A stretch of DNA of 64,000 nucleotides from Pedobacter lusitanus. GTDB lineage: Bacteria; Bacteroidota; Bacteroidia; Sphingobacteriales; Sphingobacteriaceae. Each line of letters begins with the position of its first letter. Within the stretch, counting starts at the first letter, position 1. The DNA lies in NCBI RefSeq assembly GCF_040026395.1, contig NZ_CP157278.1:4836001-4900000 (forward strand), written 5' to 3'. The notes under the pieces were generated by a model, which saw only the letters and a list, made by a program, of their open reading frames with translations, had not been told where the DNA came from and made no database searches. A program made the translations under genes and the position numbers. Positions 54,968 through 64,000 of this stretch are shown here, one piece after another.

Positions 54968-55768
54968 ATGGAACAACTATTCGCAGTTTGCAGAGTCTCG
55001 GTAGCTCCCTTAAGAGCTGAACCTTCCGATAGAGCAGAAATTACCACGCAGTTATTATTTGGAGATCAGGTAGAAGTGCTTGAAAAAGCAGAACCCTGGT
55101 GGCGCATACGTAATACATATGACGGATATGAAGGCTGGATAGATTTTAAGCAATTGGCTGAAATTACTGCAGCAGCCTGGCAGCAGTATCAGGAACATAA
55201 CGCACTGGTACCTTTAGGGATTAGTAATAAAGTGATTTCGGCTGATGGAAGTGCTTATTATTTAGCTGCTTCAGGTAATCTTCCCGGCTATAAAGATGGC
55301 TTTTGTGAACTGGGTAAAGAAAAATTTGAGGTATGCTTTGAACCGGTGAAGGTACCTGCACAGGTTTCAGCAGCCGATCTGGCAGCATCAGCCTTGTTTT
55401 TTCAGAATGCACCTTATTTATGGGGAGGCCGTACTTTATTTGGTATTGACTGTTCAGGCTATGTACAGGCTGTTTTTAAACTGAGTGGAATACCATTGAA
55501 AAGAGATGCCTCACAACAGGCAGAACAGGGGCATACAGTTAATTTCCTGCCCGAAGCGCAGACAGGAGATCTGGCCTTTTTTGATAATGCAGAAGGGAAA
55601 ATCATTCATGTCGGTATGATGCTGGATGCAGGCCGTATCATTCATGCTTCAGGAAAAGTAAGGATTGATCCGATTGATGATCAGGGGATATATAATCCTG
55701 AACTCGGACGATACAGCCACAAGCTCAGGATTATTAAAAGGTTTACAGGTCCCATTCCCACACCATAA
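54968..55768 (+). CDS. NlpC/P60 peptidase with N-terminal SH3 domain
   Basis: A 266-residue protein. Residues 1-60 form a bacterial SH3 domain (VAPLRAEPSDRAEITTQLLF...), a second SH3-like part follows to about 125, and the C-terminal half is NlpC/P60 with the catalytic cysteine in FGIDCSGYVQAVFKL, histidine in KIIHVGMMLD and IHASGKVRID. No signal peptide is seen, which is common for this cytoplasmic YkfC-like type that cleaves recycled peptidoglycan peptides; the location is an inference. Its end overlaps the WD40 gene by 26 bases. Confidence 0.88.
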   Translation: MEQLFAVCRVSVAPLRAEPSDRAEITTQLLFGDQVEVLEKAEPWWRIRNTYDGYEGWIDFKQLAEITAAAWQQYQEHNALVPLGISNKVISADGSAYYLAASGNLPGYKDGFCELGKEKFEVCFEPVKVPAQVSAADLAASALFFQNAPYLWGGRTLFGIDCSGYVQAVFKLSGIPLKRDASQQAEQGHTVNFLPEAQTGDLAFFDNAEGKIIHVGMMLDAGRIIHASGKVRIDPIDDQGIYNPELGRYSHKLRIIKRFTGPIPTP

Positions 55769-56642
55769 CCAGTTTGTCGTCACCTGTGGTAATTAAGTAT
55801 TTACCATCTTCGCTCCAGATCAGTTTATTAATGGAATGGGTATGCCCGTGCGTGTTTTTTTCTATGCTCAGAATTTTATAGAGTTTCAGATCATCACTGC
55901 CCCATAGTTTGATACTCTTATCCTGGCTTACCGTGGCAAAATAAGGCAGGGTAGGATGAAAAGCAATACCATAAACACTGAACAGGTGAGCCGGAATAGT
56001 GTGCTGAAGCTGATAATCCGGTGTTGACCAGAAATTCAGCTGTGCATCTCTTCCCCCTGAAATCAGATATTTGCCATCCGGCGAATATTGAACAGAAGTA
56101 ACCGGTAAAGTATGCTGTTCCAGGATATGCAGCAGACTATAGTCCGTCAGCTGATAAATACGTATGTTGCCGTCCTTGCAGCCAAAGGCAGCCTGCCGAT
56201 GATCAGGACTAAGTGCAATGGCTCTTACTGTATCAGCAGAAACCCGGATCCGGTACAGCAGAGACAGATCTGTTAAAGACCATACCCCAACAGTCCCGTC
56301 TTCACCAGCAGTTAAAAACTCCTGTTTTTCAGGGATCACAGCGATGTCAAATACAGGTTTTTCATGTGCCTGAAAGTTAGCAGTTACAGCCTGTTTACTG
56401 AGGTCAAATATGCTCAGTTCACCACTTCTCTGACCTACAAAAAGCAGGTCATTATACTGATGAAGACTGTAAACAGAAGTTTTTACAGGCATCAGCACCT
56501 TGATAAATGACATTTTTGACAATGACCACTCCACTACACCTTTATCATTTCCACCGGTAAAAAAAATCCCTGCCTGAGCAGAGCCCGTTAAGGCATAAAC
56601 AGGATTCTGATGACCACTAAGCGATCTTAAATGTTTCAGCAT
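55743..56642 (-). CDS. WD40-repeat protein at the end of the his operon
   Basis: A 299-residue beta-propeller of about seven WD40 repeats, without other domains or signal peptide. Clear repeats are VTSVQYSPDGKYLISGGRD, FSVYGIAFHPTLPYFATVS and HSINKLIWSEDGKYLITTGD, most ending in a tryptophan (NFW, KLW, MVW). The ATG at 56642 (9 bases after the hisIE stop) is used rather than the TTG two codons earlier. Immediate proximity to hisIE makes it the last gene of the histidine operon; a scaffold role is likely but its link to histidine is unclear. Confidence 0.82.
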   Translation of the reverse strand: MLKHLRSLSGHQNPVYALTGSAQAGIFFTGGNDKGVVEWSLSKMSFIKVLMPVKTSVYSLHQYNDLLFVGQRSGELSIFDLSKQAVTANFQAHEKPVFDIAVIPEKQEFLTAGEDGTVGVWSLTDLSLLYRIRVSADTVRAIALSPDHRQAAFGCKDGNIRIYQLTDYSLLHILEQHTLPVTSVQYSPDGKYLISGGRDAQLNFWSTPDYQLQHTIPAHLFSVYGIAFHPTLPYFATVSQDKSIKLWGSDDLKLYKILSIEKNTHGHTHSINKLIWSEDGKYLITTGDDKLVMVWEWDL

Positions 56643-56651
56643 ATCCAAATA

Positions 56652-61523: not shown

Positions 61524-62811
61524 CTGATGATTTTAAACGAATGGTGATTGCATTTTTGTGTGCCTGAAGTCCTTCTGCAGCAGCAAGGATTTCAACAGTA
61601 GGGCCAATAGCCGTCAGTCCCTGCGGACTGATATGCTGGAATGTAATCTTTTTGATAAAAGAGTCAATAGAAACACCAGAATAGGCTTTGGCAAAACCAC
61701 TTGTAGGTAAAGTGTGATTAGTGCCTGAGGCATAGTCTCCGGCACTTTCCGGAGTCAGATTACCCAGAAAAACAGATCCGGCATTGATAATCTGCGGAAT
61801 GAGCTCTTCATAGTGGTCTGTTGCCAGGATTAAGTGTTCAGGAGCATAAGCATTACTGAAAGCCATAGCCTGCGTCATATTTTCTACCAGTACTGCATAA
61901 GAATTGACGATAGCCTGAGCAGCAATATCCTTTCTGGGCAGTTCGCTGAGCTGAAGCTCAATTTGCTGCAGGGTCTCAGTAATCAGCGCTGCGGAGTTGG
62001 CAATCAGGATAGCCTGACTGTCTGTACCATGTTCTGCCTGTGCTAAAAGATCAGCCGCAACAAATGCCGGACTTGCAGTTTCATCAGCAATAACCAGTAC
62101 TTCTGACGGACCTGCAGGCATGTCAATTGCAGTAATACCAGATGCCAGCACCTGTTGTTTAGCCTGGGTTACATAACGGTTCCCCGGACCAAAAATCTTG
62201 TAAACCTCTGGTACACTTTCTGTGCCGAATGCCATAGCGGCAATAGCTTGTGCACCACCGGCCAGATAAATCTTTTCAATCCCTAAAAGCTGAGCACAGT
62301 AAGCCAGAAAACAATTGGTTTTTCCATTTTGCTGAGGTGGTGAACAGACTACGATTTCCTGACAGCCTGCCAGTATTGCCGGTATGCCAAGCATCAGAAA
62401 AGTACTCGGTAAAACAGCCGTTCCACCAGGAATATATAAGCCGACACGCGCTATTGCTCTGGCTTCCCGCCAGCACGAAACACCGGGCATAGTCTCCACT
62501 TTAGCTTCCTGAGAAATTTGCGCGGCGTGGAATTTTTTGATATTTGCATAGGCCGTATCGATAGCAGCACGGGCATCATCAGGAATCTCTGAGGCAATCT
62601 GTGCGATCTCATCTTTGGTGAGGAAGAGCTGGTCCAGATTTACCTTGTCAAACTGCAGGGCGTAATCTCTGAGCGCCTGGTCTCCTGCTGATTTTACCTT
62701 TCCAATGATCGCTTTGACGCTTTTAGCAATGCTTGCATCATCAGCCAGTTGTCTTAAACAGAGTTCTTCAATATTCTGTTTAGATAAATCAGTATACTTG
62801 TAGATTTTCAA
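61513..62811 (-). CDS. hisD: Histidinol dehydrogenase
   Basis: A 432-residue zinc enzyme that oxidises histidinol to histidine in two NAD-dependent steps. IDMPAGPSEVLVIAD, LLAQAEHGTDSQAIL and GTNHTLPTSGFAKAYSG are diagnostic, with the metal/catalytic Gln-His and the catalytic glutamate-histidine pair. Start is a TTG (MKIYKYTDLSK) with no ATG nearby. It follows hisG by 65 bases. Confidence 0.96.
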   Translation of the reverse strand: MKIYKYTDLSKQNIEELCLRQLADDASIAKSVKAIIGKVKSAGDQALRDYALQFDKVNLDQLFLTKDEIAQIASEIPDDARAAIDTAYANIKKFHAAQISQEAKVETMPGVSCWREARAIARVGLYIPGGTAVLPSTFLMLGIPAILAGCQEIVVCSPPQQNGKTNCFLAYCAQLLGIEKIYLAGGAQAIAAMAFGTESVPEVYKIFGPGNRYVTQAKQQVLASGITAIDMPAGPSEVLVIADETASPAFVAADLLAQAEHGTDSQAILIANSAALITETLQQIELQLSELPRKDIAAQAIVNSYAVLVENMTQAMAFSNAYAPEHLILATDHYEELIPQIINAGSVFLGNLTPESAGDYASGTNHTLPTSGFAKAYSGVSIDSFIKKITFQHISPQGLTAIGPTVEILAAAEGLQAHKNAITIRLKSSDGY

Positions 62812-62876
62812 TGTTTTATATTTTTATGTTAACTAATAGTTAACGGTAAAAAGAAGCTATTTGATTAAAATAATGC

Positions 62877-63728
62877 CTAAGAAATGATCTTTTCAATCGG
62901 CATAACCACAATTCCTTCTGCACCTGCAGCTTTTAAACTGTTGATCTTTTCCCAGAAGTCCTGCTCTGCAATTACCGAATGCACGGCTACCCAGTCTTCT
63001 TCAAAAAGAGGTACAATTGTCGGGCTTTTAACTCCCGGAAGTAAACTCACGACTTTATCAAGATTGGATTTGGCAACATTCAGGACTACATATTTTGTCT
63101 CTTTGGCGCGCAGTACGGAACGGATTCTTTGCAGCAATTCTATGACGTCTTCATTGAGTTCCATACCTTTACTGGCAATCAGTACAGCTTCAGATTTCAT
63201 GACTTCACCAAAGGGTTTCAGTCCATTGCTTTTTAAAGTTCCGCCGGTAGAAACAATATCACATATCGCGTCACTCAGACCCAGCCCGGGACCAATTTCT
63301 ACTGATCCGGAAATGGTACGGACTACTGCATTTACTTTGTTATCATCCAGATATTTTTGAAGGATTACCGGATAAGAAGTGGCGATTACTTTTCCTTCCA
63401 GTCCGCTGACACTGGTAACTTCACTGTCATTGGGAACAGCAATTTTCAGCGTGCATTTTCCAAAGCCCAGTTTTTGAAGATAGGCTACATCCGCATCAAC
63501 TTCTGTGATTACGTTTTCGCCGACTATACCCAGATCGGCAATACCATCCTGAACATATTCAGGAATATCATCATCTCTCAGAAATAAGATTTCCAGTGGG
63601 AAATTTGTAACAGTCGATATTAAGGAGCTTTTGTAGTTTTCGAATGATAAACCACAATTTTTAAGAATCTCTACGGATTTTTCGTTAAGCCTGCCAGATT
63701 TCTGGATAGCAATTTTAAGTGTTTTCAA
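62877..63728 (-). CDS. hisG: ATP phosphoribosyltransferase, long form
   Basis: First and feedback-controlled step of histidine synthesis. The 283-residue protein is the long HisG with a C-terminal regulatory domain (about 215-283, ending AEGIVVMPIEKI), so no separate HisZ is needed. LKIAIQKSGRLNEKSVEIL starts the catalytic domain; ADLGIVGENVI and ICDIVSTGGTLKSNGL are conserved. I start at the TTG at 63728; an upstream TTG at 63773 would add 15 residues unlike HisG. The start codon lies in a small hairpin (63723-63738). Confidence 0.95.
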   Translation of the reverse strand: MKTLKIAIQKSGRLNEKSVEILKNCGLSFENYKSSLISTVTNFPLEILFLRDDDIPEYVQDGIADLGIVGENVITEVDADVAYLQKLGFGKCTLKIAVPNDSEVTSVSGLEGKVIATSYPVILQKYLDDNKVNAVVRTISGSVEIGPGLGLSDAICDIVSTGGTLKSNGLKPFGEVMKSEAVLIASKGMELNEDVIELLQRIRSVLRAKETKYVVLNVAKSNLDKVVSLLPGVKSPTIVPLFEEDWVAVHSVIAEQDFWEKINSLKAAGAEGIVVMPIEKIIS

Positions 63729-63773
63729 TTGATTGAAATTATTGAATGAAACAGGAAAATAATTCGGAAACAA

Positions 63774-63790
63774 GTTTTGAAGTACAAAAC
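63774..63790 (-). terminator. Candidate his attenuator hairpin
   Basis: GTTTTG and CAAAAC arms (6 bp) around a 5-base loop, about 45 bases before the hisG TTG. On the leader RNA it is followed by TTGTTTCC, a weak U-rich tract. It may alternate with TTTTGAA pairing in the leader ORF. Its strength as a terminator is doubtful. Confidence 0.35.
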
Positions 63791-63799
63791 ATTAAATAT

Positions 63800-63856
63800 C
63801 TATCGCCATAACTGGCGATGGTACAAATGTGAGTGATGGTTCAAAATATTGTTCAT
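63800..63856 (-). CDS. hisL: Histidine leader peptide (his attenuator)
   Basis: An 18-codon ORF with ATG at 63856-63854, reading MNNILNHHSHLYHRQLWR and ending in TAG. Four His codons fall within residues 7-13. It lies between a TATATTTG promoter box and hisG, in the his-operon direction. A 7-bp hairpin (63802-63819) overlaps its last codons. This is the layout of ribosome-controlled attenuation: stalling at His codons when charged tRNA-His is scarce would change downstream folding. It is too short for standard gene callers. Chance is the only alternative, and the His density makes it unlikely. Confidence 0.85.
   Translation of the reverse strand: MNNILNHHSHLYHRQLWR
63802..63819 (-). promoter_or_regulatory. 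Hairpin over the end of the his leader ORF
   Basis: ATCGCCA and TGGCGAT arms, 7 bp, 4-base loop, GC-rich for this region. It overlaps codons 13-18 of hisL and is therefore opened or left closed depending on ribosome position, as expected for an attenuator or pause hairpin. Confidence 0.6.
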
Positions 63857-63899
63857 AATCTATGTCTCTATTCAATAATGCGTTGCACACTGAGTGCCA

Positions 63900-63907
63900 C
63901 AAATATA
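63900..63907 (-). promoter_or_regulatory. Predicted his operon promoter -7 box (TATATTTG)
   Basis: TATATTTG on the minus strand, with TTTTG at 63930-63926 as a possible -33 element (spacing about 18). It lies about 44 bases before hisL and about 170 bases before hisG, giving the long leader needed for attenuation. Nothing further upstream (to 64000) looks coding. Confidence 0.6.
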
Positions 63908-64000
63908 TAGATAGAATTGACAAATCAAAAATATATGGCATTTTATTTGTTTAGCATGCTCGTGAAGCCTGTTAACAAAGCTCAATTTATTTAAATACCG

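Follow-up and report, generated by a model that had tools for sequence, protein, structure and literature searches.

The window, a stretch of 64,000 nucleotides of Pedobacter lusitanus DNA, carries a his operon on its minus strand, whose genes were identified by family search as, in order, hisG, hisD, hisC, hisB, hisH, hisA, hisF and hisIE, in agreement with the hisGDCBHAFIE order read in a first-pass annotation of the same DNA. The window's genome is close to Pedobacter cryoconitis, its hisG being 97% identical to that of L032. Just downstream of hisIE lies an open reading frame (ORF) of 301 residues (55743–56648, minus strand), for which no NCBIfam family was found at an E-value of 1e-20. 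The start codon of hisG is probably the TTG at 63728–63726, which was picked because it aligned with the ATG, GTG or TTG starts of relatives.

Upstream of hisG, and between it and a promoter box as the first-pass annotation had placed it, lies the short reading frame hisL, which ends 71 nt before the hisG start. Translation of the minus strand agreed with the earlier description of a frame running from ATG to TAG with histidines at residues 7, 8, 10 and 13. Around it, the leader contains two hairpins and the arms of long-range pairings, the coordinates of which are collected in Table 1.

Table 1 Features of the hisG leader, listed from the promoter box towards hisG (positions are those of the window)
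Feature	Position	Strand	Remarks
Promoter −7 box TATATTTG	63900..63907	-	Bacteroidota type; transcription start expected near 63893
P1 5' arm AUUAUUGAAU-A-GAGACA	63863..63879	-	Just upstream of the hisL start; 16 predicted pairs with 63738–63753, one A bulged
hisL leader peptide ORF MNNILNHHSHLYHRQLWR	63800..63856	-	ATG to TAG; His at residues 7, 8, 10 and 13 (translation)
P3 5' arm UUUUGAA	63840..63846	-	Inside hisL; competes with hairpin B for its 3' arm (predicted fold)
His-codon cluster (codons 7, 8, 10, 13)	63818..63838	-	Relatives usually HHxHxHH
Hairpin A ATCGCCA-GTTA-TGGCGAT	63802..63819	-	Overlaps the end of hisL; no U run follows
Hairpin B GUUUUG-UACUU-CAAAAC	63774..63790	-	Stem changes on both sides across the family
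P1 3' arm UGUUUCAUUCAAUAAU	63738..63753	-	Ends 9 nt before the hisG start
hisG (ATP phosphoribosyltransferase)	62877..63728	-	TIGR00070, 190.7 bits; first structural gene of hisGDCBHAFIE

Conservation of hisL and its promoter box

We compared the leader across 142 loci of the window's family (Sphingobacteriaceae, judging by how most near relatives are named), comprising the window, 80 loci that were the best 80 of 509 confirmed hisG relatives, 60 further loci and one more family genome, the further genomes being drawn from among the matches listed. At least seven genomes are counted twice among these family rows, and a set of 31 representatives (alignment score at most 0.72) removes the duplicates. 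Six family genomes in which the hisG start was missed by the pattern were left out; they too have the His-rich ORF. Work on RNA structure used 138 leaders, that is, all rows except L072, G388 and G352, for which the finder gave no hairpin B, and G374, which has too little upstream DNA. Twenty additional family genomes, 18 of them from a genus with one earlier row, served as a held-out set, 16 of which were used for the long-range pairing P1. Outside the family, 53 hand-picked genomes were examined (41 of class Bacteroidia and 12 of other classes), in which the hisG start was not fixed.

An ATG-initiated ORF with at least four histidines within eight residues was present before hisG in all 142 family rows (regions of up to 400 nt); when the 300 nt closest to hisG in the 31 representatives were shuffled by dinucleotides, such an ORF arose in 4 of 1860 trials. 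The best eight residues contain four histidines in 19 rows, five in 105 and six in 18; the peptide of the window has four, and those of most relatives five or six. The exact core HHxHxHH is found in 104 of the 138 leaders, and since both CAT and CAC occur at every one of the five histidine positions, it is the amino acid that is kept and not the base. All 20 held-out genomes have hisL with at least three histidines in eight residues; in two of them (G485 and G467) the call is short, with three histidines, and an in-frame ATG lies 30 nt further upstream. NCBIfam models searched against the hisL peptide (two residues appended; 20-residue minimum) gave no match at E-values up to 10.

The first-pass annotation had taken the frame, in its Bacteroidota setting, for a histidine leader peptide, a reading that a conserved short His-rich ORF with synonymous changes would support and that relatives lacking such an ORF upstream of hisG would contradict. 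The CAT/CAC exchanges are synonymous changes of just this kind, and the ORF was found in 142 of 142 family rows, 20 of 20 held-out genomes and 39 of 41 other genomes of class Bacteroidia. We regard it as near certain that hisL is a genuine histidine leader peptide.

Each of the 138 leaders carries a box of the form TAnnTTTG no more than 80 nt upstream of hisL (133 of them TATATTTG), at a median of 39 nt before the ORF; mononucleotide shuffles contained TAnnTTTG by chance in 181 of 3100 cases. Boxes of the TATATTTG/TAnnTTTG type are what we take to be the Bacteroidota promoter consensus. Comparison within the family thus shows a His-rich ORF together with a fixed promoter box in every row examined and, in most rows, two hairpins whose predicted stems covary.

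The conserved histidines also bear on the possibility that hisL is a translational 'antenna' or coupling ORF, which would load ribosomes upstream of hisG without any sensing of histidine. Leader genes near structural genes have indeed been proposed to raise translation by reinitiation (PMC4833913). Against such a role for hisL, its histidine enrichment is far above that of shuffles and is kept in all family rows, and the distance from its stop codon to the hisG start is far from the peak of 11–14 bp given for Bacteroidetes in the same text (PMC4833913), making this explanation highly improbable in our judgement.

Hairpins and terminators in the his leaders

The reading of hisL as a sensor of histidine leaves open which RNA structures it acts on. 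The first-pass annotation had seen the design of the enterobacterial his attenuator in this leader, pointing to a GC-rich hairpin that overlaps hisL. That hairpin is real (hairpin A), but no U run follows it, and it is not a terminator of the enterobacterial type; the likeness in design was not supported, as no intrinsic terminator was found between hisL and hisG and the conserved structures (hairpin A, hairpin B and P1) are other ones. Hairpin A was rejected as a terminator for its missing U run.

All 138 family leaders have a local stem of at least five pairs where hisL ends, with at least three G-C pairs in 133. Nearly all of these stems are ATCGCC/GGCGAT or the compensated forms ATCACC/GGTGAT and ATCGCT/AGCGAT, and a few are of other sequence. 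Its covariation comes from this wider set, because the stem is invariant within the 48 Pedobacter-type leaders analysed with RNAalifold (MAFFT alignment A1, drawn from the 81 leaders of the window and the 80 best loci). On those 48 leaders, RNAalifold returned hairpins A and B only, with a covariation term of −0.42 and three hairpin B pairs changed on both sides.

Hairpin B was accepted by our finder in 139 of the 142 rows, with stems such as GUUUUG/CAAAAC, GUUUC/GAAAC and GUUCUG/CAGAAU. Leaders that have hisL and in which the finder saw no hairpin B are L072 and those of genera g161 (L212, L237; G388, G352) and g163 (L256; G354), possibly further variants of the leader. In the held-out genomes the finder missed hairpin B in four of the 20: G426, G407 and G485 carry a variant of the GGCTCTACG type, and G354 lacks the hairpin. 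In some genera, though not in Pedobacter, inspection by eye suggested that the loop of hairpin B might pair with the His codons (CACGUA with UACGUG), an idea that was dropped. In many genera a CCCCG-like stretch recurs some 10 nt beyond hairpin B and ahead of P1.

Despite the covarying stem, the loop of hairpin B (63784–63780) begins with UAC in 130 of the 139 rows, and two of the nine remaining rows (L062 and G429) look like mis-picks by the finder. Base pairing alone does not explain a fixed loop, which speaks for a factor acting in trans: a protein or RNA would bind hairpin B with its UAC loop, and translation of hisL would do no more than place ribosomes so as to show or hide that site. 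The exact 15-base core of hairpin B occurs once in the window's genome, and its one-mismatch sites number three, as do those of a reversed-pattern control. These counts, being equal to the control, give no sign of a regulon, and we consider a trans-acting factor rather unlikely.

We scanned the same leaders for terminators. No terminator-like site was found in the window between 63500 and 64000, which includes the interval from hisL to hisG. Across the family, a scan for strong terminators gave weak matches in 8 of 138 leaders (2 of the 31 representatives, and 0 of 620 shuffles), and in each of the eight the match was to hairpin A, followed by an AT-rich tail. Applied after hisL in the other class Bacteroidia genomes, the same scan was positive in 35 of 41, compared with 3 of 245 shuffles; one of the 35 (G166) is doubtful, with a five-pair stem inside hisL, and another genome, G181, fails the scan, yet its GC-poorer stem is followed by a T run. 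An ATG-initiated ORF with at least three histidines in eight residues was present in 39 of these 41 genomes, and one with at least four in 31, the corresponding numbers for shuffles of all 53 non-family regions being 26 and 2 of 1060. In 29 of the 35 scan-positive leaders, one per genus label, the sequence downstream of the last His codon shows lineage-specific complementarity to the 5' arm of the terminator (cognate −12.16 versus swapped −8.78 kcal/mol, z −6.5). Judged by these predicted structures, such his leaders of other class Bacteroidia families are classical attenuators, and attenuators of this kind with terminators are widespread in the class (L118–L165, upstream of hisG). This distribution indicates that the window's family has lost a terminator that most other Bacteroidia his leaders examined keep.

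Among the 12 genomes from other classes, a His-rich ORF was seen in eight and a strong terminator in five. Two of another class (L166 and L167, family f43) have longer, very His-rich ORFs of the HHDVHHAHRGHHHIDVH type before hisG and gave no strong terminator match; they are possibly another terminator-less group.

Leader peptides rich in the cognate residue also precede a trpE-like gene (MINNKHTTWQWRGNSEKSFVAVSCTL), the aspartokinase (thr) gene (MINNSTLTSIIITTTGKAGGRCILVY) and pheA (MRNITTYWFSYFYYFSKSRD) in the window's own genome, the trpE-like gene scoring below its family cut-off. All three leaders have GC-rich terminator stems with T runs (L265:282–420, L267:257–395 and L268:375–505, respectively; outside the window). 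The trp and phe terminators were reported on the strand of the gene; the thr stem, which the scan reported on the other strand, reads by eye as GCGCCTTCC-GGAAGGCGC followed by nine T. From their predicted features the trp, thr and phe leaders are classical attenuators, and since they keep their terminators, terminator loss is specific to his among the four leaders examined. The ilvD gene of this genome lies inside a run of genes, where no leader was seen.

The terminators of other families in the class, and those that the same genome uses for trp, thr and phe, at the same time lend weight to another explanation, in which the his operon would still be under transcription attenuation by a non-canonical terminator. 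Once hisL is fully translated, transcription would then end either at one of the two hairpins, A or B, helped by weak U tracts, or through the action of Rho on the unstructured RNA that separates hairpin B from hisG. T runs do follow hairpin B in some Pedobacter (CAAAACTTTTTTTCC), and the stretch after hairpin B is G-poor, often with a CCCCG-like run. However, the T tract that follows hairpin B is not a conserved feature (CTTGTTTCCG in the window), the few leaders that pass the terminator scan do so by hairpin A and its AT-rich tail, and in the modelled folds described below hairpin B is favoured when the ribosome stalls, which is opposite to what a terminator would require. For its unconserved U tract and this direction, hairpin B was set aside as a terminator, and we hold transcription attenuation of this kind to be a doubtful, if serious, alternative.

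Long-range pairing and the modelled effect of ribosome position

The bases just before hisG are complementary to those just before hisL. This pairing, P1, first surfaced in a scan of 91 window pairs, 14 of which exceeded |z| 2.5. Between the 25 nt before hisL and the 30 nt before hisG, the predicted energy in the 31 representatives was −8.88 kcal/mol for cognate and −5.34 kcal/mol for swapped partners (z −8.3, 0 of 2000 permutations), with z −7.6 in the 25 representatives that have short spacers. The controls were flat: z −0.4 and −0.6 when the 5' window was moved by 25 and 50 nt, and z −0.4 in canonical families, for which a 35-nt window near the start was used as the hisG start was not fixed. 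When leaders were set against shuffles one at a time, 15 of the 31 representatives reached p 0.05 for P1, as did 8 of the 16 held-out leaders. It was not recovered by RNAalifold on alignment A1 (48 leaders), and for that reason we relied on the cognate-versus-swapped comparison.

The first 18 nt of hisL behaved likewise towards the 3' arm of hairpin B and the 14 nt that follow (P2/P3; cognate −8.00 versus swapped −5.06, z −8.3). P3 and hairpin B are mutually exclusive; an exclusive pair of antiterminator and terminator is absent from this leader, there being no terminator, and hairpin B versus P3 is found in its place. A fourth candidate pairing, P4, in which the linker ahead of hairpin B would pair with the His codons, was weak (z −2.6) and was not relied on. 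Comparison across lineages shows that the P1 arm and hisL codons 1–6 (P2 and P3) are complementary, lineage by lineage, to a predicted partner region that extends from the hairpin B 3' arm through the bases before hisG. A conserved RNA strand is thereby predicted to pair with the hisG start region, which is one feature of a translational attenuator.

The spacing between these elements varies. In some genera the hisG start is much further from P1, by up to 232 nt (L105), and hisG follows the hisL stop by about 100–320 nt in L104, L105, L187, L189, L195 and L234 (g162, Parapedobacter) and in L076 and L079 (Olivibacter). Inspection by eye shows a short ORF in L234 that ends in an ATGA overlap with hisG, and one that overlaps the hisG start in L104/L189; these short ORFs could couple hisG to a second small cistron.

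We modelled the effect of a ribosome on the leader by blocking an assumed footprint of 30 nt and refolding the remaining RNA, considering equilibrium folds. In the 31 representatives, the predicted probability of hairpin B was 0.81 when the first His codon occupied the A site (28 of 31 reaching at least 0.5) and 0.14 at the hisL stop codon (at least 0.5 in 4 of 31), compared with 0.14–0.21 in the free RNA; the model gave 0.53 with the A site on codon 2, 0.61 on codon 4 and 0.59 on the last His codon. Replacing the 5' segment with that of 12 other lineages raised hairpin B from 0.17 to 0.41, the cognate value being the lower in 25 of 31 (Wilcoxon p 7e-5), so that the competition is lineage-specific. 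For the window's own sequence, hairpin B was still predicted at 0.81 with the ribosome at the stop codon, and its switch therefore looks weaker than that of most relatives. Overall, the folds make a ribosome-position switch in the hisG leader likely.

Whether this switch is read out on hisG translation could, in our estimation, go either way. The predicted cost of opening the hisG start region in the 25 short-spacer representatives was 7.58 kcal/mol in free RNA, 7.43 with a ribosome at the hisL stop and 7.34 with one at the last His codon, compared with 4.25 for an initiating ribosome alone and 4.42 for a stalled and an initiating ribosome together. The difference between the stop position and the stalled-plus-initiating arrangement was above 1 kcal in 19 of the 25 and below −0.5 in four. 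A single ribosome on the first His codon, compared with one at the stop, lowered the cost by a mean of 0.65 kcal/mol across the 31 representatives, with a gain of over 0.5 in 13 and a reversal by over 0.5 in four. Because a single stalled ribosome lowers the cost so little, the read-out would lean on queued ribosomes, and because an initiating ribosome alone opens hisG equally, dwell time would have to carry the signal.

In the mechanism that we propose, plentiful histidine would allow the ribosome to reach the hisL stop or leave, whereupon P1–P3 would form, hairpin B would be broken and the region before hisG would be tied to the hisL start via P1. When histidine is scarce, a ribosome held on the first His codons would cover P2 and P3 and let hairpin B form, and a following ribosome held at the hisL start would cover P1 too. 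The freed hisG start region would then give more hisG translation and, indirectly, more operon mRNA. That a ribosome on hisL determines how the hisG leader RNA folds, with no intrinsic terminator involved, and that a translational attenuator has so replaced the transcriptional one of other Bacteroidia, is a reading to which we assign an even chance. More tentatively still, we suggest that the his attenuator went from transcriptional to terminator-free translational in an ancestor of the Sphingobacteriaceae, with the starts of hisL and hisG masking each other through one long-range helix and queued ribosomes at the His codons opening both.

Relation to known leaders

Histidine leader peptides and start-masking attenuators are both already known kinds. 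The enterobacterial his leader (Rfam RF00514, His_leader) likewise has, immediately upstream of hisG, a short ORF that carries a run of His codons, and it has alternative folds set by ribosome position, which in our case are modelled; it differs from the leader in the window, which is without an intrinsic terminator and has other hairpins and a predicted long-range helix to the hisG start. An Rfam search of 62500–64000 with E-values up to 1 returned no family of any kind, including RF00514 His_leader and T-box, and the His_leader model reached at best 36.7 bits, against a cut-off of 49, on the loci of 20 relatives (18 of other families).

Closer in phylogeny, a transcriptome study of Flavobacterium psychrophilum reports strong clues that amino-acid operons are preceded by leader peptides acting in attenuation, and it also describes a conserved 5' element before hisG in Flavobacteriaceae (PMC9723704). 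This element concerns the same phylum and the same gene; family f26, which its peptides lead us to guess is Flavobacteriaceae, has a terminator, whereas the window's family does not.

The erm and cat leaders are examples of attenuators that sequester a ribosome-binding site. Attenuators that act in this way instead of terminating are mentioned as a known kind in PMC9413887. In these, as in our model, stalling of the leader ribosome unmasks the start of the next gene. They differ from the present leader, in which no Shine-Dalgarno sequence is expected and the strand predicted to do the masking sits immediately ahead of the hisL start codon itself; because the strand adjoins the hisL start codon, the hisL and hisG starts would mask each other.

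The Bacteroid-trp motif precedes trp genes. It is listed as RF01692, a candidate cis-regulatory RNA of Bacteroidetes, in PMC2864571. The motif relates to another amino acid, and the region 62500–64000 of the window has no match to it. Short ORFs in long 5' untranslated regions of Bacteroides thetaiotaomicron have been called reminiscent of leader peptides (PMC7366714); they share with our case the phylum and a suspected leader-peptide control, and no his gene is named in the portion of that text that was found. According to an article of 2010, leader peptide systems had not been shown outside Proteobacteria and Actinobacteria (PMC2965389). A terminator-free his leader with mutual masking of two starts and no Shine-Dalgarno pairing was not met in the open-licence literature searched. 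Earlier predictions for Bacteroidetes may be contained in Lopatovskaya et al. 2010, which PMC4833913 cites.

Start-site choice in Bacteroidota does not rely on Shine-Dalgarno pairing. The leader therefore offers a direct test of how RNA structure alone gates translation in such a phylum, and this genome's trp, thr and phe leaders provide built-in controls. The comparison indicates that class Bacteroidia commonly use a textbook device for histidine, which one family has rebuilt without the terminator; if the proposed mechanism is true, an amino-acid translational attenuator without Shine-Dalgarno pairing would operate in one cell together with transcriptional attenuators that remain intact for trp, thr and phe. 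As a minor observation on the limits of the family, L063 and L109 have hisG and a leader of the Pedobacter type, though their records are titled Flavobacteriaceae bacterium and Flavihumibacter soli, respectively, and these titles may be off.
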